From: an uncultured Verrucomicrobiota bacterium
GTDB lineage: Bacteria; Verrucomicrobiota; Verrucomicrobiia; Limisphaerales; UBA9464
Direction: 5' to 3'
DNA length: 37,505 nucleotides
Assembly (NCBI GenBank): GCA_903842505.1
Contig: CAIMMI010000116.1
Location: 1-37,505, forward strand
In this document: positions 3,001-32,064 of the stretch, one piece after another
Position numbering within the stretch: position 1 is the first letter of the stretch
Layout of the letters: each line of letters opens with the position of its first letter
Notes under the pieces: model-generated
The model's input: the letters and a program-made list of their open reading frames with translations, nothing else
Database searches by the model: none
Told to the model about the DNA's origin: nothing
Program-made: the position numbers and the translations under genes

Positions 3001-3570
3001 CTCCAGATGGGCAATCGCTTCCTCGTCGAGGGCGATCCCCAGAAGGCCCGGCGCGCCTTCCAGAACGCCTTCGGCCTCAGCACCCACGACAACGCCTTCA
3101 ACGAGGACGCCCGCGTCCAGCTCCACAACCTCAAGGTCCAGCAGGCCCTCGTCGGCCTCAACATCGGTCAGGCCGCCGTCGCCGGCGAATCCGCGCCCGC
3201 CGCCGGCAACCTCCGACAACTCCGCAACCGCTCCGAGGCCAACTACACCCAGCAGGAAGCCAAGGAACTCTTTGCCCTCAACGGTGCCGCCGACAACGCC
3301 ACCCTCGAGAAGCTCGCCGAGCGCATCATCGAGCAGCAGGACGCCGCGCTCCCCTCCCCCACCGCCATCCGCGCCTCCATCCCCCAGCAAGGCCGCATGC
3401 TCACCTTCAAGCGATCCGTCCAGGTCGAGACCTGGACCGACCTCAACCTCCGCCTCGCTGCCCGCTCCACCAACGCCCCCAACCGCGTCGGCCGCTTCGC
3501 CGCCTTCGCTGCCCTCGGACTGGTCCTCACCGCCCTCGTCCGCTTCACCCGCCCCCGCGCCAAGGTGTAG
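1..3570 (+). CDS. Large membrane-anchored protein, 5' end outside window
   Basis: The frame is open from base 1 to the TAG at 3568-3570, so the start lies upstream; the GTG at 151 falls inside a hydrophobic stretch and is not a credible start. The first ~70 visible residues form two or three membrane segments, a Pro/Thr-rich linker follows, and another hydrophobic stretch ends near codon 117 (HRLEA). The next ~900 residues are a beta-rich, presumably extracytoplasmic region. Near 2980-3180 a helical stretch resembles a TPR pair (AEEMLQMGNRFLVEGD, then KARRAFQNAFGLS). The protein ends with a membrane helix and a basic tail (RFTRPRAKV). I do not recognise a named family. Large proteins of this shape occur in Verrucomicrobiota and Planctomycetota, where function is unknown. 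A role in envelope assembly is only a guess. Coding is certain from length and codon bias. Confidence 0.85.
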   Translation, partial: AWPAALALVAWIFALTRGPGLTRSLAVALGWTFLAWAALRLPADTRPFTLVIAAFAAIHLVLPALAAARRTSSTPPPSNPTPTPTPPDPTCGPSPTAAAAAVLLGLGLWASPHRLEAATTPTALAESITHDVRVEEGFATATTRIRWNATRNQSLPILFDPAVLIRANFPTNALRLIQAPTESRRGHQLLALTNGTVDIDLTFQFRTTVRDGVSGLVLPTPHGLVNRVNLTLADLDVDVFAPDAVSIDRQNSTSNTTIVRIILAPATDPWIARRPRSRDLQNEKPLFYADTTHLFTPTAGLVEGLHVLQIRPAQGQLSELLLDIPTGATITDVADANPAPAPAPAANIDAKQNRPTPAPSVSLWRFDPDTRRLRITLAPAQSRPFALVVRSQIATGALPVEQRVEVPTVVGAAGQVGAVGIATGNEVQLDSVVLDALSPLNLEDYPAAPVQYLQSRMPGLALRRAFRHTEARGSLTLKASAVEPDIRVETQDTLSLGEDRTVLASNLKMTVTRAGIFRVSFALPAGLDVESITGPALSHWTELKSTTERIITLHLKGRTEGEHPFSINLAGPGTRGLKSVAVPRLVLREAAKQRGQLVIVPEQGLRLQVGQRDGVTQLDPEKAGIRQKGVLAFRLLQPNWNLALDLEQVDAWVQVTSLQHVQVTEAQLKVTANLRYQIENTGLKSLFVRVPTNATGLRLRGDQVADFVAQPNSITNGLQLWEVKLHRRAIGKYDLQATWQTPLAEAATNTVIQGILAADARLQRGFVTLQSAGRLQLTTTILPSALQPAEWQSIPRPLLQDLDTATANLTYRLVEPNFSLPLGLVRHEAARLLPARVHQVTLTSVISDEGVMLTQARIEIVPGDKRLLQLTLPADARFWFAFVNQNGVYPWREQDRILIPLEQQSRADKPTTVEFFYSSRIGDAASRKLDLALNGPKFDLPLEDITWQVYLNSKWTLEDWSGSLQLQSTDTGSTATVDVQSYLQGEQVQNQAKTKAAEEMLQMGNRFLVEGDPQKARRAFQNAFGLSTHDNAFNEDARVQLHNLKVQQALVGLNIGQAAVAGESAPAAGNLRQLRNRSEANYTQQEAKELFALNGAADNATLEKLAERIIEQQDAALPSPTAIRASIPQQGRMLTFKRSVQVETWTDLNLRLAARSTNAPNRVGRFAAFAALGLVLTALVRFTRPRAKV

Positions 3571-3572
3571 GC

Positions 3573-3696
3573 CCGGGTGCCCTCACCCGGCGGTGCTTCT
3601 CTGTAGGCCGCGTGCCCCCACGCGGCGTTGCCCCTCTCTACGCCGGGTGCCCTCACCCGGCGTTTCCTCTCTGTAGGCCCGGGTGCCCTCACCCGG
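3573..3696. repeat. Array of four evenly spaced hairpins
   Basis: Four short perfect palindromes sit directly after the stop codon at 3570: 3573-3590 (7-bp stem), 3607-3626 (8-bp stem), 3641-3662 (9-bp stem) and 3679-3696 (7-bp stem). All have a four-base loop, CCCT or CCCC. Their centres are 35, 35 and 36 bp apart and the spacers share a CTCTCTGTAGGC-like sequence. The first could help terminate transcription of the upstream gene, but the regular phasing suggests a repeat family rather than a simple terminator. Confidence 0.8.
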
Positions 3697-3745
3697 CGAT
3701 CCCAATCCCCAACGGGGCGAACGGTGACCACACGCACCCTGTTCC

Positions 3746-12378: not shown

Positions 12379-12417
12379 CACCCCATCCGTGTCATCGGTG
12401 CCCCCTGCGGTTCCAAC

Positions 12418-12440
12418 GGTAGCGCAATGGGGTCAGTCCC
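12418..12440 (+). repeat. Extra copy of the RAYT terminal sequence
   Basis: These 23 bases are identical to 12556-12578, the left end of the RAYT element 138 bp away, and share the CAATGGGGTCAGTCCC core. They lie in the otherwise gene-free interval 12281-12581, which is noticeably more AT-rich than its surroundings around 12470-12550. This could be a solo REP-like end left or copied by the transposase. Confidence 0.85.
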
Positions 12441-12561
12441 TGGTTGGGCAACGGTGTCTGGCATTCGAATCTAACCGCTATGTATAATATGTGTGGAAGC
12501 GCTTTGATTGACCGCCATAGCGTTTACTATGACCGTTGACCGTTTGAAGACCTGTGGTAGC

Positions 12562-13688
12562 GCAATGGGGTCAGTCCCGTATTATTTATATTTCCCCCGG
12601 ATTCCTTCCACGAACTCCTTCAGTTCCCCACGTTCCTCGGCCAGTCGCCAAAACCGCCGTACGCCCTGCGCCAGGGAACCGTACTGGACCCCAGGCATCT
12701 TCCCGGCCACTTCCACCAGGCGCCACCCCAGATGCCTGGTCGCCACCGCCACCACCCCGTCCCGGCCCCAATCCCCATGTCCTTCACACATCTCCTGCCA
12801 GGATCGGCCTCGCAGGGATTCCGCCGTCGACACGATCTCCGGCCAGTCGGGCCTGACACGCCGGGCCGCTGCCACCACCACCCGCCGCGCCTTCTCCGGA
12901 TCCTTCGCCGCTTTCCGGATCAGCCCTTCCGCTTCCCGGGTTTCCCCCAGCACGACCCCTCCCACCAATCCCTCCCACGGGTTGTCCAATCGCCCCTGCC
13001 GGATGGGTGCCTCCGTGTAGGCAACCAGTGCAGCCCGCCTCTGCCGAGCCCGGCTCCCGTCGTTCTCGCCGAGCAACCGTTCCAGATTCAGCCAACCCGG
13101 TGCCGGCTCCAGACCGGCGTACACCCGCCAGGAACTCCAACCGTACTCCCTCAGCGCCGTCACCCGTCGAGCGACCAACTCCGCTCCGGGGTCCGGACAC
13201 CCCATGACACGCGCCCGTCGTTGATCTTCCTTGGACAACCCCAGTCCTTTGATCCGCACCGGATTCAGGTGAAGGTACCGGCCGACTTCCTCCAACCGCC
13301 CCTCATCCTGGATCAGTGCCGACTTGAATCGTCCCTGAAAGACGTGGCCCCTTCTTCGATGCGCCCAGTTGAACCGAACGGAATAGCTGGTCTGCAGCCA
13401 CCGAAGGGTCTCGCTGACGTCCGTCCGACGACAACGCAACAGCAGATGGTAGTGATTGTCCATCAGCACGAACGCATGCACCTCGGCGCCGAACCGGTCC
13501 GGCAGTTCCGACACCAACCCGAGGAACGCCCGGCGATCGTCGTCCCGGCGGAAGAGGGTCTCCCCGCCATTCCCACGGCTCATCACGTGATACCAACCAT
13601 CAACAACATGGATGCGAAGCGGTCGTGCCATCCGGCAAGGCTGCGTCTCAACGGCCAATTGTCAATAGTACGGGACTGACCCCATTGC
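12562..13688 (-). mobile_element. RAYT element bounded by perfect 20-bp inverted repeats
   Basis: Positions 12562-12581 and the reverse complement of 13669-13688 are identical over 20 bases (core GGGGTCAGTCCCGTA). The left copy abuts the stop codon of the transposase and the right copy lies 37 bp upstream of its start, so the pair frames the gene exactly. At the right end the 16 bases 13681-13696 are duplicated in tandem at 13697-13712. A third end copy is at 12418-12440. This matches the known association of RAYT proteins with REP-like palindromic ends. No target duplication is evident. Confidence 0.85.
12582..13631 (-). CDS. REP-associated tyrosine transposase (RAYT, Y1/HUH)
   Basis: A 349-residue single-strand DNA transposase/nuclease of the Y1_Tnp superfamily. 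The start ATG at 13631 gives the classic opening MARPLRIHVVDGWYHVMSRG. The metal-binding HUH pair is His60-Tyr61-His62 in MDNHYHLLL, and Tyr83 (TSYSVRFN) is the likely nucleophile, followed by RRGHVFQGRFKS and YLHLNPVR. The long C-terminal region (about 180-349) ends in a DnaA-like helical segment seen in larger RAYTs. All catalytic residues look intact, so it may be active. A TTG start nine codons upstream is less likely. Confidence 0.95.
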   Translation of the reverse strand: MARPLRIHVVDGWYHVMSRGNGGETLFRRDDDRRAFLGLVSELPDRFGAEVHAFVLMDNHYHLLLRCRRTDVSETLRWLQTSYSVRFNWAHRRRGHVFQGRFKSALIQDEGRLEEVGRYLHLNPVRIKGLGLSKEDQRRARVMGCPDPGAELVARRVTALREYGWSSWRVYAGLEPAPGWLNLERLLGENDGSRARQRRAALVAYTEAPIRQGRLDNPWEGLVGGVVLGETREAEGLIRKAAKDPEKARRVVVAAARRVRPDWPEIVSTAESLRGRSWQEMCEGHGDWGRDGVVAVATRHLGWRLVEVAGKMPGVQYGSLAQGVRRFWRLAEERGELKEFVEGIRGKYK

Positions 13689-13721
13689 TTTACAACCCCA
13701 TTGCTTTACAACCCTTCGCGT

Positions 13722-15522: not shown

Positions 15523-15626
15523 GGGCGCACCCTACGCCAGCCCGATCGGGTCGGCCAAGGCCGTTCCCGGAGAGTTCCCGGTTTCCAGATGCCAGTTTCC
15601 AGAGAGGTCCAAGCCCTTCCACCGCT

Positions 15627-16023: not shown

Positions 16024-16048
16024 GGTGGGGCGAGACTCCGTCGAGCCG
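16024..16048 (+). repeat. Single terminus of the GGTGGGGCGAG repeat family
   Basis: GGTGGGGCGAGACTCCGTCG followed by AGCCG matches the ends of the MITE-like elements at 17058 and 19418 (in the form seen, reverse-complemented, at the right end of the 17058 copy). No second end is recognisable nearby, so this is a solo end or decayed copy between the phosphatase-like gene and the methyltransferase gene. Confidence 0.6.
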
Positions 16049-16176: not shown

Positions 16177-17022
16177 ATGATTCCAACGCACTTCAAGGGC
16201 TGGGCCATCCCGGGCCCCATTCCTCCCGGGGCCACCGGTCTGGGACCCGAACCGGGCCCAGGCGAAACGCTCGATTCCATCAGCGGTCGTTTCCGCCTTT
16301 TCCAACTGACCGACGGACACCGCTTCTCGACGGATGACGTCCTCACCGCCTGGTACGGCACCTCCGGCTGTCCCTGCGCACGGACCGTCCTCGACCTGGG
16401 CAGCGGCATCGGAACCGTGGGCATGATCGCCGCCTGGCGGTTCCAAGGCGCGCGCTTCGTCACGGTCGAGGCCCAGGAAGCCAGCGTCGCCCTCGCCCGC
16501 AAATCTGCTGCCTGGAACGGCCTCCTCGACCGTTACGACATCCGCCTCGGCGACCTCCGCGATCCGAGCATCCTTGGGGCCGACGAGCAGTTCGACCTCG
16601 TCCTCGGCAGCCCGCCCTACTTCCCGCTCGATGCCGGCGTGAAGAGCGAACATCCGCAACGCCTCGCCTGCCGGTTCGAGATGCGCGGCACCGTTGTCGA
16701 CTATTGCCGCACGGCCGCCGATCACCTCGCACCGGGCGGGGTCTTCGCCTGCGTATTTCCGATCCGGCCCGAGGAGCAATCGCAACGGGTGCTTCAAGGT
16801 GCGACCCAGGCTGGCCTGTCCATCGTCCGCCAGCGTCCCATCGTCCTGCGAGAGGGCGAGGACCCCCTGCTTGGACTGTTCCTGATGCACCGAGCGGTCG
16901 ACCTGCCGGAACGGTTCCGTAACCAGACCCACACCGAACCCCCGCTCTGCATCCGGCGCGCCGACGGCTCGGTGTCCGTCGAGTACTCCGCCATCAAGCT
17001 GTCGTTCGGCTTCCCGCCCTGA
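16177..17022 (+). CDS. TrmN6-like SAM-dependent methyltransferase
   Basis: A 281-residue class I methyltransferase resembling the tRNA1(Val) A37 N6-methyltransferase group (COG4123). The target-recognition opening GRFRLFQLTDGHRFSTDDVL precedes the SAM loop DLGSGIGTVGM (73-83), the acidic VEAQ ribose contact (97-100), and the catalytic SPPY (145-148) where TrmN6 has NPPY. Ser is tolerated at this place in related N6-adenine enzymes, so activity is plausible. The ATG at 16126 would add 17 Cys/Pro-rich residues; I prefer 16177. Actual RNA or other target is not proven by sequence. Confidence 0.85.
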   Translation: MIPTHFKGWAIPGPIPPGATGLGPEPGPGETLDSISGRFRLFQLTDGHRFSTDDVLTAWYGTSGCPCARTVLDLGSGIGTVGMIAAWRFQGARFVTVEAQEASVALARKSAAWNGLLDRYDIRLGDLRDPSILGADEQFDLVLGSPPYFPLDAGVKSEHPQRLACRFEMRGTVVDYCRTAADHLAPGGVFACVFPIRPEEQSQRVLQGATQAGLSIVRQRPIVLREGEDPLLGLFLMHRAVDLPERFRNQTHTEPPLCIRRADGSVSVEYSAIKLSFGFPP

Positions 17023-17057
17023 ACCGATCTGGCCGAGGGAACCGTCCCACGGCGAGC

Positions 17058-17192
17058 GGTGGGGCGAGTGTGATCACGAGCCGCTCAAAAGTTCCGAGTT
17101 TCAAGATGCAAGTTTCAAGCCCGGCCCCTGCTTGAAACTTGAAACTGAAATCTTCGATCTCCTGAGGCGGCTCGACGGAGTCTAGCCCCACC
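17058..17192 (+). repeat. MITE-like 135-bp element, copy 1
   Basis: Begins GGTGGGGCGAG and ends in TAGCCCCACC; about 27 bases at each end are imperfect inverted copies of each other. Inside, 17109-17120 (CAAGTTTCAAGC) and 17130-17141 are a perfect 12-bp inverted repeat with a 9-base loop. A same-length copy lies at 19418-19552. No coding capacity. Confidence 0.8.
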
Positions 17193-17234
17193 TTCGAGGG
17201 TTGCCCTGCGGCACTTCGCGCCTAGGCTTCACCC

Positions 17235-17534
17235 ATGGGCGACTCAAAGAAGGACAGCAAACCCGGGAAATCCGGGAAATCCGGGAAGGCTGGCAAGGCG
17301 CTGATGCTCGGCGTCGGTCTCGATTCGGATGGCCACAAGCGCGTGACCACGGGCAAGAACTTCGCCCTCGTCGGCGGCACCGCTGAGACCCATGAGGCGA
17401 TGGCTGAGAAGGCCATCAAGATCAACGAGAAGCTCGCCCGCCGCGGCAAGGAACTCCACGAAGTCTCCCACGAGGAATTCAGCGACATCGCCCACGAGGT
17501 CGGGCTTCGACGGAACGATCCCGGACGGAACTGA
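17235..17534 (+). CDS. Small conserved-looking protein of unknown function
   Basis: A 99-residue protein. The first ~22 residues are a Lys/Gly/Ser tail (KPGKSGKSGKAGK) built from a threefold 9-base DNA repeat (GGGAAATCC), so likely disordered. The remainder is compact: LMLGVGLDSDGHKRVTTGKN, then ALVGGTAETHEAMAEKAIKI and a charged helix ending DIAHEVGLRRN. No signal peptide or membrane segment. I do not recognise the family. The alternative minus-strand reading of the same stretch looks like a shadow, because codon use fits the plus strand. Confidence 0.7.
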   Translation: MGDSKKDSKPGKSGKSGKAGKALMLGVGLDSDGHKRVTTGKNFALVGGTAETHEAMAEKAIKINEKLARRGKELHEVSHEEFSDIAHEVGLRRNDPGRN

Positions 17535-17540
17535 TCGGCA

Positions 17541-18791
17541 TCACGGCCGGGCCACGCCCGGAGCCGGCGCGTTCGTCAGCGGTGCCTGACGGATCGCCCG
17601 GACGTCCGGCTTCTTCGCCAGCCACGTCCGTCCTTCCGGGGCCGCGAGGAACTCCACGTACTGCGGTTGCGTCTGCACGATCTCCCTCGGGTCCACTGGC
17701 AGATGATCGCTCACCAGGTCGAGGATCCGTGCGATCTCCTTGAACTCCTTTGCCCGGATTGCGATTCCCAGCAGTGCATCGTAACCGGTCGCCAACTCGG
17801 GCTCTGCACGCACCGCCTCCATTGCCAATTGCCGACCGATCGCCACCTGCCCGGCTCGCGCCAATTGCGCCCCCCGAAGCGCCCGCAGGTGAAGGTCGTT
17901 CCCGATGAACTGCTCGATCCGCTCCAGCGCGGCGGCCGAACGTTCATGCTCCCCGCGCACAGCCAGTTTCTCGAACGTCACCAGATCGAGCCCTGGATCC
18001 CCCGGATACCGTTTCGCCCAAGCCTTGCTGGCCAACCCGAACTCCAACGGTTCCACCGCCAGGCTCGCCACCAACTCCATCTGCAACAGCGTCCGATCCT
18101 CCTTCAACGTCTCCGGAAGCCCCCGGTAGGCATCCACGAATTCCAGATACTTCCGCTGCTGCATGAAGCCCAGCAACCGCTCCACCGTGGCCGCCTGCCG
18201 TACCAACTCGGCCGGTGCCCCCTGCAGCTTCGCCGCCGCCCCAGGACCCCGCTTGCCTTCGCTCAGCAGGTACAGCCAACGGATCGTCGAACTGAGCCAC
18301 TCGCCCTGCGACACCACGAAGACATCCGTCACCGCCACCTCTCCACCCGACTTCGGCTCAATCAGGTACCGGTGATAGTTCACCGCTCCGTCGGGAAGCA
18401 GGCCACGGAACACCAACCCTCCCGCCCCATTCGTGCGCACCACCCCGAGGAACCGGTAAGTCGTGAACCCCTTCAACACATGCTGGATGCTCGCGGTCGC
18501 TCCCTTCGCATACTGGGACACGAATTCCTGCCGCTCCTGCTCCTCCCCGGGCAACCCCGCCAACGCCTTCTCGGCCAGCAACCGCAGATCCATCCGTGAA
18601 GTCACTGCCGTGACCTCACCCTTCCTGACCAGGAGTTCCCACTCCGCCCCGACCCGTTCCGCAGCCCCGGAGGCCACCGGCGCCGTCGGCAGGATCGGCT
18701 GTTGTCCCATCACGACTCCTGCCGCCGTCGCCAGCAACACGGCCAAGCAAAGCCGCCCGCATTCCAAAACCAGATTCTTCCGTGCCATCAT
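17541..18791 (-). CDS. Exported protein with TPR-like helical region, function unknown
   Basis: A 416-residue protein with signal peptide (ARKNLVLECGRLCLAVLLAT, ending near VMGQQ). A middle segment (about 70-190, TASIQHVLKGFTTYRFLGVV and YHRYLIEPKSGGEVAVTDVF) looks beta-rich. The C-terminal half is made of helical pairs (FEKLAVRGEHERSAAALERI, MEAVRAEPELATGYDALLGI) like TPR repeats. The start at 18791 overlaps the stop of the DUF4870 gene (ATGA), so the two are translationally coupled. It may use these repeats to bind partners outside the cytoplasmic membrane; nothing specific can be said about role. Confidence 0.85.
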   Translation of the reverse strand: MMARKNLVLECGRLCLAVLLATAAGVVMGQQPILPTAPVASGAAERVGAEWELLVRKGEVTAVTSRMDLRLLAEKALAGLPGEEQERQEFVSQYAKGATASIQHVLKGFTTYRFLGVVRTNGAGGLVFRGLLPDGAVNYHRYLIEPKSGGEVAVTDVFVVSQGEWLSSTIRWLYLLSEGKRGPGAAAKLQGAPAELVRQAATVERLLGFMQQRKYLEFVDAYRGLPETLKEDRTLLQMELVASLAVEPLEFGLASKAWAKRYPGDPGLDLVTFEKLAVRGEHERSAAALERIEQFIGNDLHLRALRGAQLARAGQVAIGRQLAMEAVRAEPELATGYDALLGIAIRAKEFKEIARILDLVSDHLPVDPREIVQTQPQYVEFLAAPEGRTWLAKKPDVRAIRQAPLTNAPAPGVARP

Positions 18792-19192
18792 TTGATGAGC
18801 CGAAGGATGTACGGATACCGATAGAAACCGCCAGACCAAGCCTGCGCCGATGCCACGATCACCAGCACCAGATGCGCCGCCACCAATACGAGACTGGCAA
18901 CCCCAGCCACCCACATCCCAAGCCCGCACGTGAGCACCCCGACAACAAACCCTCCCACCACCAGACCCACCTGATAGATCAGCATCGACAGGTTCAGGTT
19001 GATCGACTCTTTCCCGTGCTGATCCACCGAGGGGAACCGCTCCCGTTGGATCATCCAGACGATCAATGGGCCCAGAATGAATCCCACCCCCGTCATCAGA
19101 CCGGTCAGGCTGATGGCATGGACGAGGGTGTTCCACAACCGGGTTTCCGAGTGGTCAGGTCCCGACTGCGGGAGAGGCGAAACATTTTCCAT
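18788..19192 (-). CDS. DUF4870 family membrane protein
   Basis: A 134-residue integral membrane protein with the Tic20/DUF4870 layout: an N-terminal soluble part, a first hydrophobic stretch with HAISLTGLMTGVGFILGPLI, the conserved polar link WMIQRERFPSVDQHGKESIN before NLNLSMLIYQ, then two more hydrophobic stretches and a short tail (GGFYRYPYILRLIK). Function of DUF4870 proteins is not established. It is the first gene of a two-gene unit with the exported protein downstream. Confidence 0.9.
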   Translation of the reverse strand: MENVSPLPQSGPDHSETRLWNTLVHAISLTGLMTGVGFILGPLIVWMIQRERFPSVDQHGKESINLNLSMLIYQVGLVVGGFVVGVLTCGLGMWVAGVASLVLVAAHLVLVIVASAQAWSGGFYRYPYILRLIK

Positions 19193-19279
19193 GTCGGTCG
19201 ATGCTGACGGGATTCGCAGGATTCAAAACTGGAATTTCATGGGTGCTGTCCAACGGTTGCCAGAGTCGCCCCGAATCCG

Positions 19280-19399
19280 GAGGGACCCGACTCCGTCGAG
19301 CCGGGCAGCGGCAAGATTGAAGGCCCAGGTTTCAAGCGGGGGCTTGAACCTTGAGACTTGGTGCTTCCTCACGGCTCGAACGGAGGGTCTCGCCCCACC
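19280..19399 (+). repeat. Diverged copy of the MITE-like element
   Basis: Ends in GGGTCTCGCCCCACC like the other copies and contains TTTCAAGC...GCTTGAA internally (around 19330-19350). Its left end (GACCCGACTCCGTCGAGCC at about 19287) has lost the GGTGGGGC tip. It lies only 18 bp from the next copy, and together they occupy most of the gene-free interval 19193-19592. Confidence 0.6.
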
Positions 19400-19417
19400 C
19401 CGTGAGGCAGCAGTTAG

Positions 19418-19552
19418 GGTGGGGCGAGTGTCCTCATGAGCCAGTCGCGAGTCCCAAGTTTCAACATTCAGTTTCAAGACCGGCTCCCGCTTCGAACTTG
19501 AAACAGAAAACTTCAAACTCCGCGGCGGCTCAACAGCGGGCATGGCCCCACC
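19418..19552 (+). repeat. MITE-like 135-bp element, copy 2
   Basis: Same length, ends (GGTGGGGCGAGTGTCCTCAT and GGCCCCACC) and internal block order (GTTTCAAG, then CTTGAAAC) as the element at 17058-17192, in the same orientation. Internal identity is partial, so the copies are old. Confidence 0.8.
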
Positions 19553-19592: not shown

Positions 19593-22500
19593 CTACGGTG
19601 CCGACAACCGGTAGTAACGGGCTTCCCCTCCCAGTCCATCGGTGACCGATTCCTCCCCTCCGGTCCCGCGCGCCGGGACGTCTGCCAACACCCGCTCCGG
19701 CCCGCCCAATTGATCCCGCACCAGCACCCGCACCGCGCGCCCCGGGATCCGTGTCCAGACCAACCGCACCCACCCGTCCAAGCCCACCTCCGCGCGCAAC
19801 GTCATCACCGATGCCGCCGACAGCGGATCCGTCCCGGCCAGGAATTCTCCCGCGTTGCTGACGCCATCCCCGTCCCGGTCTGCCCTGCCCGTGTCCGTCG
19901 GGGCGCCGCCCACCACCAACCCCACCCGCGTCTCCCACACATCCGGCAGGCCATCCTGATCCTGATCGCCTCCCGGTCCCGGCAACGACGCCCGATCCGG
20001 CTGTCCCGGCGAACCTCCCACCTCAGCACTCAAACGCCAGAGGCCAGCATCCAGGGCTCCCTCGTTCCCCGGCACGAGGCTCCACCCTCCGCCATCGGCC
20101 AACGGTTCCACGGCATCGTCATAGGCCATGCCATCCACCCATTCACCCACCGGTCCCCGGAGTTCAACGCTATCTCCCTCATTGGCCAACCGCCCAGAAA
20201 ACTCGCCCGCCACCAGAAGGCCTGGCGACACCGCCCCGTAGGCCGCGCGGTCTGAAACCACGATGCAGCGTTCCCCAGGCGCAAGGCGCGCCAACGTGTT
20301 GCTACCCGCGAACTGGAACTGGATCCCGCCCCCCAACTGCCACCCCGTCAGAGACACCGGCACCGTACCCAGATTGGAAACCTCCAGGAACTCCGACGCC
20401 CCCTCGGCGGCCGGATGATAGTGCACCTCCGTGATGCGCAGCGCCGGACGCTGCAGGACCAGGATGTTCGTCAGCGGCCCACCCCAACGACTGTTCGGCG
20501 TGCCCGTCCGATTCACGGTCGAGTAGTTCCGTGCGATGACCCGTGTGTTGCGGGTGAAGGCCGGAGGCGCAATGGGATCATAAAGTCGCGCCGTCCCCGA
20601 AATCCCGCCCCCTGACAACCGCGGATCCGTCCCGTCCGTCGTGTAGTAGACGACCACTCCGGCATTCGTTGGCGGAACCAAGCCGAGCCGGATCTGCGCC
20701 CCACCGGCATCAATCACCGCCGTTCCCGCACGCGCCATCGGCACGAACCGCGTGTCGATGAAGTCCAGACGGTTCGACAGCCAGTTCTTCGAGTAGGTGA
20801 TCTCCGTCGCGTACGTCCCGCCCCGATACGTCGTACCCCACTTGGCGCGTTCGCGGGGTTGGGCCTGCTTCAATTGCCCCGTCAACCCATCCAGCCGCAC
20901 GAACGAATTCGACAGCGACAGCGGGCCTTCCCGCATCGCCTGGTACCGATCAATCCATCGCTGCGTGAAGTCCGGGTCACTGAACAACCGCGGCCACCAC
21001 GAGAACGAAAACAGGTTCGCTCCCCACGTCCTCGGATTCACGTCACGCCCGTCCGTGGAACCCAGCGACCGATCAAAATCCCACACCGGGCCGAACGTCA
21101 GCTTCCCATCCCGTGGCTTGTACAGGTAGGTGCTCAGCACCAACGCATCCACATTGAACGCCACCGAATTCAGGATGTGGAAGTCGATGCTCGGATCGAC
21201 GTCGAGGTACCGCGCATACCCGTTGGTCGGATTCCGGTAATTCACTCCGTTCAAGGCCGTCGAGAACTGCGAGAAGAACCGCGAGACATAAGCCCGCTGT
21301 GCGGCCCGGTCCGCGCGCTTGATCTCGGGCTCCTTCGGATCGACGTACATCATCGTCGTTCCCGCTGCCGAAAAGCCGGCGTCGCCCGGATCGGCCCGGT
21401 CGACCTTGAACAGGTACCCGCCAGTCACCTCGGGTTCCAACGCGTGCTCCGGTTCCAGCTTGTCCACGTCCACGCGGTTCTTGCCGCGCTTCACCTTTTC
21501 CTCGAGTACGTAGATCCCATTGTACGAGGTCGTCGACACCGCCCCCACCCCGGTCTGCACCAGATAGACCTCCACGAACCGCGTCCGCGACGCGTAGTAT
21601 CCGAGGTCCCGCGCCAACCCGTACATGAAGGGATTATGCGTCATGATCGGGTCAAAGACGTTTGGCGCATAGAGGACCCAGTCCGAATCCTCCGGCATCC
21701 CCAGCCACGCGATGTCCCGGTCGAGCTCGAACTCGTCGCGGAACTCTACCTTCAGGCTGACCTTCGGCAGGCCTTCCGTGCTCGACCCACGCGACGCCAG
21801 CACAGCCCGCGCCGAAAGCGTCGGAGGGTTGGTCATCGAGGTCACTCCCCCCACCGGCTCGAACAGCTGCACCGTCCCCGCCACCCCAAGCGTGCTTGGC
21901 CTTCCCCTCCCGTAGTTGTGCAGCAGGAGCACCGGAAGGTCCGACCGGAACTGGGCTGCCCCCACGGACAACGGCGTGTACGCGGCGCTCACCGGCGGTC
22001 CCGGCAGTCGCCCCGGCGAGAAGGTCCGCGCCCGAAGCACCACGGCCGACCTGAAGGTCAACGGCCCCTCGTACACCGGCGACGAAACCCCGGGCAGCGT
22101 GTTGTTCGTCGTGAACCGGATGACTGCGTTGGTATCCACCTCCGGCATCCGCAACGACACCGTGACGGCTCCCGAATAGGTTCCCGCCGGCTGACTGACC
22201 TCCAATGCCGGCGCGTAACCCGAACCCGAGGCGCTGTTTGCTGCCCCTGGCGTCGACTTGTCGAAGTACCCCACAATCTGCGGGGCTCCCCCCGCCCGCC
22301 CATAGGAGACATCCTTCGTCTGCACCGGATACTTCGGTGCAAAGGCCGACACCACCTCCCCCGCCGGATTCACCAAGCCGAGATACTCGCCCCCGGCATC
22401 GAGCTTGAAATTCGTGTGCAACCGGCCCGGCACGTTCGTTCGGTTCTTCTCCGATGCGTACACGAGCAGGAAACCCCGCGCCGGCAGCACCACATCCGGG

Positions 22501-23546
22501 AACCGCCACTTGAAAGGCGTCCCAACCGCATCACTCAATCCCCAGCCCAGCAACCGGACATCCCGAGTCGAAGGGTTGTGCAACTCGATCCAGTCGACGT
22601 CGTCGCCATTTTCGTCGCGAAGGGTCCGGTCGTTGTCCGCCATGAACTCCGAGATCACCACCGCGTCCGGTGGCACCACGTCATTGACCGTGTAGCTCCA
22701 CGCATCGCCTGCAAAGGCGTTCGGCGGCGTCGACCGATCCGTGATCGCGGCATCCGGCCGCCACTCGATCCGGACATCGGACCGATCCACGGCCGACACC
22801 GTGAACTGATATTGATCCGGCCCCAACGGCGTCACCGCCACCGCCGGAACTCCATTGACCAGCAGGTCGCCCGCATCCACCCCGCGCACAGGCTCGCTGA
22901 ACAGCACCTCCACCTCCGTCAACTCCGGCACTACCGCCCCGGGTTCGGGCAACATGCGCACGAGCAACGGAGCCTCAACATCCGGATCCGCCTCCAACCA
23001 GGCCAGCCAGCGCAGCGGAGTCACCGCGCCCTCCGGCAGGATCATGGCCGCGATCACGTTCGTCCCCGGTCGTAACGACGGAAGTTCCGACCGCGCCAGC
23101 ACCGCGCCCAAAACTCTTGGCGTCGATACCCCGTCCTGCGGGCGGCCCAACGGATCATTCACCGCTGGATTGAGCCCGTTCCGCCAGACCTCAACCCCGT
23201 TCAACCACACCACCACGCCCCCGGCCACGGATCCGTTGAACCGGTAGGTCGAATACTGGTCTGGATTCGGGATCACCACCGTGGTCCGCACCAGCAACCC
23301 TCCCAACTGCGACGGGAGCAGGACGCCACCGCCGGGCAACCCGCGCTGCAGCGGACCCGGACCCAGACTCCAACCCGAAGCCAATCCATCGTACTCCACC
23401 TCCCGCCACATCCCCGGGCTCAATGGATCCGGGTCCACGTCCGCCAACCGCCAGTGCCACGAGGCATTGCTCGGCAGGAGGACCGCCGCCTCGACCCCGG
23501 AAATACCGAAGACCAGCCACCAGAACAGCAGGCGGAGTGAATGCAT
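19593..23546 (-). CDS. Giant exported CotH / lamin-tail domain protein
   Basis: A 1317-residue secreted or surface protein. Signal peptide 1-20. An N-terminal jelly-roll-like part (about 60-180) is followed by a bacterial Ig-like segment (about 190-280, LFSEPVRGVDAGDLLVNGVP), a first lamin-tail domain (about 292-400, VVISEFMADNDRTL), a chitobiase/C-terminal-like segment (about 440-520), the CotH domain (about 535-890, with FGPVWDFDRSLG near 820 as the kinase-like active-site motif), a second chitobiase-like segment, a second lamin-tail domain from about 1035 (LRITEVHYHPAAEG) and thrombospondin-3-type calcium repeats near 1195-1235 (DQDQDGLPD, DRDGDGVSN). CotH in spore coats is a protein kinase; for these large proteins the target is unknown. 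No frameshift seen. Confidence 0.92.
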   Translation of the reverse strand: MHSLRLLFWWLVFGISGVEAAVLLPSNASWHWRLADVDPDPLSPGMWREVEYDGLASGWSLGPGPLQRGLPGGGVLLPSQLGGLLVRTTVVIPNPDQYSTYRFNGSVAGGVVVWLNGVEVWRNGLNPAVNDPLGRPQDGVSTPRVLGAVLARSELPSLRPGTNVIAAMILPEGAVTPLRWLAWLEADPDVEAPLLVRMLPEPGAVVPELTEVEVLFSEPVRGVDAGDLLVNGVPAVAVTPLGPDQYQFTVSAVDRSDVRIEWRPDAAITDRSTPPNAFAGDAWSYTVNDVVPPDAVVISEFMADNDRTLRDENGDDVDWIELHNPSTRDVRLLGWGLSDAVGTPFKWRFPDVVLPARGFLLVYASEKNRTNVPGRLHTNFKLDAGGEYLGLVNPAGEVVSAFAPKYPVQTKDVSYGRAGGAPQIVGYFDKSTPGAANSASGSGYAPALEVSQPAGTYSGAVTVSLRMPEVDTNAVIRFTTNNTLPGVSSPVYEGPLTFRSAVVLRARTFSPGRLPGPPVSAAYTPLSVGAAQFRSDLPVLLLHNYGRGRPSTLGVAGTVQLFEPVGGVTSMTNPPTLSARAVLASRGSSTEGLPKVSLKVEFRDEFELDRDIAWLGMPEDSDWVLYAPNVFDPIMTHNPFMYGLARDLGYYASRTRFVEVYLVQTGVGAVSTTSYNGIYVLEEKVKRGKNRVDVDKLEPEHALEPEVTGGYLFKVDRADPGDAGFSAAGTTMMYVDPKEPEIKRADRAAQRAYVSRFFSQFSTALNGVNYRNPTNGYARYLDVDPSIDFHILNSVAFNVDALVLSTYLYKPRDGKLTFGPVWDFDRSLGSTDGRDVNPRTWGANLFSFSWWPRLFSDPDFTQRWIDRYQAMREGPLSLSNSFVRLDGLTGQLKQAQPRERAKWGTTYRGGTYATEITYSKNWLSNRLDFIDTRFVPMARAGTAVIDAGGAQIRLGLVPPTNAGVVVYYTTDGTDPRLSGGGISGTARLYDPIAPPAFTRNTRVIARNYSTVNRTGTPNSRWGGPLTNILVLQRPALRITEVHYHPAAEGASEFLEVSNLGTVPVSLTGWQLGGGIQFQFAGSNTLARLAPGERCIVVSDRAAYGAVSPGLLVAGEFSGRLANEGDSVELRGPVGEWVDGMAYDDAVEPLADGGGWSLVPGNEGALDAGLWRLSAEVGGSPGQPDRASLPGPGGDQDQDGLPDVWETRVGLVVGGAPTDTGRADRDGDGVSNAGEFLAGTDPLSAASVMTLRAEVGLDGWVRLVWTRIPGRAVRVLVRDQLGGPERVLADVPARGTGGEESVTDGLGGEARYYRLSAP

Positions 23547-23606: not shown

Positions 23607-23631
23607 GGTGGGGCGAGTGTCCTCACGAACC
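23607..23631 (+). repeat. Solo GGTGGGGCGAG repeat end
   Basis: GGTGGGGCGAGTGTCCTCAC followed by GAACC is identical to the left end of the 19418 element except at two positions. It sits between the CotH-type gene and iscX; no partner end is found. Confidence 0.65.
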
Positions 23632-23681
23632 TCCTTCTCGCCTATTTGACGACCCCGCCCCTCAGCGGCAATCCTTCACCC

Positions 23682-31936: not shown

Positions 31937-32040
31937 GGCCGGAATCTGTATTCGTCCGTCCGGATCTCAAACCGGGAATTCCACCTCCTGGCCTGGCAAG
32001 GCTTGGGATCGGGATCGGGAAGCGCGGAAACTTCCACGCA

Positions 32041-32064
32041 GCTCGTGAGGACACTCGCCCCACC
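32041..32064 (-). repeat. Solo GGTGGGGCGAG repeat end, reverse orientation
   Basis: The reverse complement reads GGTGGGGCGAGTGTCCTCAC then GAGC, the same end as at 19418 and 23607. A second, looser motif (GGTGGGCGAGACCCC near 32099, with GGTGTCTCGCCCC near 32129) lies just beyond. The interval 31937-32153 has no gene. Confidence 0.6.

Follow-up and report, generated by a model that had tools for sequence, protein, structure and literature searches.

In the BIMEs of E. coli, two REP subtypes, Y and Z, alternate in inverted and head-to-tail orientation at fixed spacings. Among Verrucomicrobia, GTAG-tagged REPs are known from Opitutus terrae, and the available part of that study already describes conserved spacers and heterodimers in inverted orientation, as well as REPs that sit within larger palindromes (Di Nocera et al. 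2013, PMC3733652). A Y/Z2 REPtron is mentioned in PMC6006769, and in TnpA-REP subclass 2.4 the gene for the transposase contains inserted REPs (Quentin et al. 2018, PMC6006769). Here we analysed a window of 37,505 nucleotides, the whole stretch of DNA under study, from an uncultured Verrucomicrobiota bacterium. Its repeated elements are very probably REPs and REPINs of the GT[AG]G superfamily; inverted pairs of the subtypes A and B make up REPINs of ~60 or 135 bp.

The first 135-bp REPIN of the window (17058-17192, plus strand) consists of a REP-A (17058-17083, plus strand), inverted 7-bp-periodic arrays of AAGTTTC and CTTGAAA (17089-17150, plus strand) and an inverted REP-B (17168-17192, minus strand). 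The REP-A has two mismatches to the consensus, with a head, GTG-TGAT-CAC, that retains the stem, and the REP-B has one. The arrays were detected by TRF (rows 17089-17119 and 17131-17150) and by lag-7 autocorrelation, and the element folds as a single hairpin (z -6.8 versus shuffles). The second 135-bp REPIN (19418-19552, plus strand) also folds as a single hairpin (z -5.3 versus shuffles), with a REP-A at 19418-19443 and a degenerate REP-B end at 19526-19552. A decayed REPIN (19279-19399, plus strand) carries a REP-B with four mismatches at 19279-19303 and a degenerate right end at 19372-19399. Its distance from the 19418 copy, 18 nt, matches the regular spacing of the family, so it fits the head-to-tail rule described below. 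Single REPs were found at 16024-16048 (plus strand, REP-B, exact consensus), 23607-23632 (plus strand, REP-A, two mismatches) and 32039-32064 (minus strand, REP-A, one mismatch), and at 15573-15602 (plus strand) there is a heptamer array, (AGTTTCC)n, that lacks REP units (TRF period 7, 4.3 copies). The end motif matched five times in the window, four of these being units of the family, versus 0.44 expected from shuffles. The minus strand at 19593-23546 encodes a 1317-aa protein with CotH kinase, lamin-tail and chitobiase C-terminal domains.

A preliminary description of the window had reported two copies of 135 bp ending in GGTGGGGC/GCCCCACC, a third that has decayed, and solo ends near 16024, 23607 and 32041; all of them were located, and the solo ends are the single REPs B, A (plus) and A (minus). 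It had also given the two 135-bp copies the same inverted ends. The ends are inverted and related but not equivalent, one being A and the other B. The block noted at 15574 is present and related to the 135-bp interior, but it consists of 7-bp tandem repeats and has no REPs. The proposed family of ~135-bp elements was correct in that a sharply bounded 135-bp class exists, but this is one of two main sizes, the other being ~60 bp, and many units are alone.

The basic unit of the family is a single 25-nt tagged hairpin, not the 135-bp element. It consists of an imperfect hairpin of 19-20 nt, GGC-GA-[3-bp stem, loop]-GA-GCC, preceded on its 5' side by a GTGG tag, and the GA/GA internal mismatch in the stem is conserved. 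Two related yet distinct subtypes of 25-26 nt each were recognised. Subtype A is GGTGGGGCGAGTGTCCTCACGAGCCG, with the hairpin GGC-GA-GTG-TCCT-CAC-GA-GCC; subtype B is GGTGGGGCGAGACTCCGTCGAGCCG, with the hairpin GGC-GA-GAC-TCC-GTC-GA-GCC. Folding reproduced the stems of both exactly, and the apical-stem difference between them is compensatory. Compensatory changes, which the preliminary description had proposed to look for, were also found across genomes. In 70 distinct 25-nt units from many genomes, collected with a search pattern that left the apical region free, apical pair 2 was Watson-Crick in 64% versus 25% with partners shuffled (maximum 43%) and apical pair 3 in 79% versus 41% (maximum 60%), percentages that come from related sequences and from a shuffle that ignores kinship. 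The apical-stem combinations included GCG/CGC, GAC/GTC, GTG/CAC, GAG/CTC, GGC/GCC and GCC/GGC. Both the fold and this covariation relative to shuffles point to an imperfect palindrome of the 20-40 nt kind with conserved structure. In both subtypes GTGG immediately precedes GGC...GCC on its 5' side, and relatives have GTAG variants; the tag is that of the GT[AG]G superfamily.

The host assembly has 5.21 Mb in 362 contigs and is 95.6% complete. The organisation of units was counted in 1.24 Mb of the 5.2 Mb of host sequence, partly picked around hits, so the unit density there is an overestimate. This part contained 216 units (116 A and 100 B), 73 of which were single, with no second unit within 300 bp. 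The arrangement that defines REPINs, two inverted REPs, was found with tags outside in 49 pairs, and A was paired with B in 46 of them. The gap within these pairs had modes at 9 nt and at about 73-84 nt; the former gives the ~60-bp REPIN and the latter the 135-bp element, which is laid out as REP-A, inverted 7-bp-periodic arrays and inverted REP-B. When 26 long elements were aligned, conservation dropped sharply at the tag on both sides, and the 135-bp class is therefore real. The uniform length of genomic copies that the preliminary description had proposed to check was not seen, since element lengths differ across the family while their boundaries are sharp. A further 16 pairs had tags inside. 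All 16 joined A with B and 14 of them were spaced by 17-19 nt, which indicates head-to-tail arrays.

The 7-bp-periodic (AAGTTTC)n arrays are a separate module or repeat family that also occurs inside the 135-bp class. In the 1.24 Mb of the host (G000), 93 heptamer-array clusters were found, 64 with a REP at most 100 bp away and 29 without. An outer palindrome arm, GCATCTTGACACTGCCCC, bounds some pairs as well (left in 22, right in 16 and both in 12 of 47 pairs). This arm is repeated genome-wide, with 102 matches (<=3 mismatches) versus 1 for the control, and at one locus (L043:483-653) an arm pair encloses a different, GTAG-type REPIN. For these two reasons it looks like an independent palindrome entered by REPINs, much like a common target for their insertion. 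The standard description of REPs includes neither the GA/GA mismatch nor the long heptamer interior, and both count against a plain REP reading.

The family is abundant in the host. The pattern GGTGGGGCGAGN{7,8}CGAGCC has 310 exact matches in the host genome and its reversed control has 0. In contrast, any of the 57 relatives searched has at most 42 exact matches. At L276 of the congener G002, the ortholog of window 17022-17235, the window element is missing and a different, GTAG-tagged REPIN is present instead, in sequence too diverged for a base-exact boundary; the orthologous gap has thus been used by two REP families. No polymorphic REPIN site was found, and movement of the family itself was not observed.

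The search for a matching transposase, also proposed in the preliminary description, led to RAYT genes with these ends in relatives, HuH/Y1 transposases rather than ordinary TIR ones, but to none in the host assembly. The first was found in a contig named as a Verrucomicrobia MAG (L150, CAIVQH010000018.1). This locus has a REPIN upstream, a RAYT with HuH (DHLH) and Tyr motifs, a REP downstream and a further REP within the gene, in its reading frame. When 320 genomes of the order were searched at the protein level only, related RAYTs turned up in 74, a weak hit to the host contig C245 included. Many of the genes are flanked by GT[AG]G-tagged hairpins, and the hairpin type broadly tracks the protein tree. 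In one RAYT clade (support 0.94), GTGG-GGC-GA REPs flank 11/11 genes, so that the same REP accompanies a cognate RAYT in relatives; at the flanks of several RAYT genes outside this 11-gene clade no REP was recognised. The exact unit A flanks L304 and the exact unit B flanks five genes (L289-L292 and L310). At L287 the flanking copies are slightly degenerate, at L310 the upstream unit alone was found, and L150 and L288 are near-identical genes that do not count as independent. L285, L304 and L150/L288 carry an in-frame REP, translated as RLAGTLAPP, that separates the HuH motif from the Tyr motif. The HuH motif DHLH and the Tyr motif YVQENP were found in L286, L290, L291, L304, L285 and L288. 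The best family match of the clade proteins is the REP-associated tyrosine transposase (NF047646, REP_Tyr_transpos; E 9e-16 to 2e-19), with NCBIfam scores of 58-70 bits that are below the curated cut-off of 80, and the E. coli TnpA-REP structure 4ER8 is matched as well (E 1.6e-4). The taxonomy of these relatives rests on named contig records, mostly Verrucomicrobia, and on the RAYTs of L150 and G028, which match at 94-98%; G028 is a genome of the family to which the host belongs. In the congener G003 a RAYT relative is broken by one stop. IS200-type and RGYLPH-type Y1 genes of relatives were rejected as partners, as the REPs near some of them (G043:C176 and G042:C74) are one-sided and not immediately flanking.

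In the host assembly, the protein search found no member of the 11-gene clade, and the only RAYT found is the distant C245. Because the assembly is 95.6% complete and in 362 contigs, a RAYT gene in a gap is possible; unless this is the case, the REP population of the host was probably inherited and is now orphaned. Three kinds of Y1-like gene in the host were considered as partner and rejected. First, the window itself contains a TIR-flanked Y1/RAYT-like gene (PF01797; 12582-13658, minus strand; flanks 12555-12580 and 13666-13700). Its TIRs are GCAATGGGGTCAGTCCCGTA..., an extra repeat copy is at 12417-12440, and a similar gene with related TIRs is on G000:C21; the flanking TIRs of both (GCAATGGGGTC...) are unrelated to the REPs. 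Second, C245 (L269, G000:C245:1-1060) carries an apparently intact RAYT flanked by its own GTAG-GCCCGGGTGCCCTCACCCGG REP family, which has 38 copies (<=2 mismatches; control 0) and a cluster in window 3566-3698. Third, C309 (L237, G000:C309:7773-8330) encodes a RAYT-like protein next to a ruvC-like gene. It has kept HuH and lost the usual Tyr motif, which excluded it as partner. A single REP-A is upstream of this gene. Other congeners have similar proteins, so this one may be domesticated.

These genes bear on two other accounts of the host population. One, which we consider unlikely, is that this population, with its 310 copies against <=42 elsewhere, has lost its cognate RAYT and was amplified by a non-cognate Y1 or kept by a host function, the heptamer insert and the outer palindrome being part of the adaptation. 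The other, decidedly unlikely, is that a non-cognate Y1 resident in the host, either the GTAG-RAYT of C245 or the TIR-flanked gene of the window, mobilises the REPINs in trans. No other Y1 protein with an apparent catalytic core was found in the host assembly, and the REP head of C245, GTG-CCCT-CAC, resembles the GTG-TCCT-CAC of subtype A. However, the flanks of both genes carry other repeats, stem and tag differ, and each tnpA-REP has been reported with its own REP family (PMC6006769).

The location of the units bears on a rival reading, in which the hairpin is not mobile and the host maintains it to terminate transcription, to stabilise mRNA or for DNA topology. Of 199 good units, 149 were outside called ORFs though ORFs cover 87% of the sequence, and the true extragenic fraction is probably higher, because the simple ORF caller over-extends start sites. 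With 310 exact copies, the family is thus of many copies and mainly extragenic, as REPs are. There is a slight excess in convergent-gene gaps (34/134 units versus 22% of intergenic length). This location and the very stable fold would suit a host hairpin, but such a reading is highly improbable: exact copies are patchy among congeners (0 to 310; absent or rare in the others), an Rfam search of the window matched a tRNA alone and none of the elements, and in relatives the units go with RAYT genes. The hairpins could have a host role as well as REPIN mobility. Contig breaks at REPs are modestly enriched only, with a unit within 150 bp at 8/103 contig ends versus 2.7 expected.

The preliminary description had considered the elements MITE-like, nonautonomous mobile or folding elements between genes, and they are non-autonomous, dispersed, foldable and mostly intergenic. 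But a classical MITE, i.e. a DDE transposon with GGTGGGGCGAG terminal inverted repeats cut down to 135 bp by deletion, is very improbable despite the sharp boundaries and inverted ends of the 135-bp class, given that the unit is a lone 25-nt hairpin (73/216 alone), that head-to-tail arrays and a 60-bp class exist, that no excess of 4-9-bp direct repeats, as target-site duplications would leave, was found at the boundaries of 47 pairs, and that the same units flank HuH/Y1 transposases in relatives.

For the REP/REPIN reading, a mechanism can be proposed by analogy with work on TnpA-REP and REPINs (PMC6006769, PMC3116915). A RAYT of the clade would recognise the tag and hairpin on single-stranded DNA and would cut and rejoin at the tagged hairpin, and REPINs would be copied or moved in trans without target duplication. 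The negative direct-repeat test is consistent with this last step. Once placed, the hairpins may behave in DNA or RNA like any other REP/BIME structure.

In conclusion, our results describe a REP/REPIN family that is new, large and apparently orphaned, and that belongs to a known kind. They resolve hundreds of unannotated repeats of an uncultured Verrucomicrobiota into one REP family and a partner transposase clade, which includes REP insertions inside the transposase gene. A host with hundreds of REPINs and no cognate RAYT in its assembly, whose congeners have few REPINs or lack them, offers a natural test of REPIN persistence versus decay, and a tag and hairpin type that broadly follow RAYT phylogeny provide a panel for how RAYTs read hairpins. 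The family is notable for its copy number, its composite anatomy and the apparent absence of the transposase in the host. Literature searches, with most subscription papers outside their coverage, returned no description of the GTGG family, the partner RAYT clade or the composite structure, and the GTGG family was not found in the available part of Di Nocera et al. 2013 (PMC3733652).

As far as the available part of that study goes, the window family resembles the GTAG-superfamily REPs in its short tagged hairpins, extragenic bias, and singles and inverted heterodimers whose spacers are conserved and some of which sit within larger palindromes, but differs in the GTGG tag, the GA/GA stem mismatch and the heptamer-array spacer. 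The same part describes TIRYT genes, which the window Y1 gene at 12582-13658 resembles, its TIRs with GGGGTCAG fitting the published GGGGWSAS; these TIRYT-like repeats are unrelated to the REP/REPIN elements. Clade RAYTs share with subclass 2.4, in some of the genes, an in-frame REP between the HuH and Tyr motifs, but have DHLH and YVQENP where subclass 2.4 has NH[IFV]H and YIxNNP (PMC6006769), and because both motifs differ they were given no TnpA-REP subclass. Like published REPINs (Bertels and Rainey 2011, PMC3116915), the elements are two inverted REPs that form one long hairpin, non-autonomous and RAYT-paired; unlike them, they include an extra 135-bp class with a repeat-derived interior, in a host assembly without cognate RAYT. 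With E. coli BIMEs the family shares two related, alternating REP subtypes at fixed spacings, and it differs from them in its sequence and in its longer, structured spacer.
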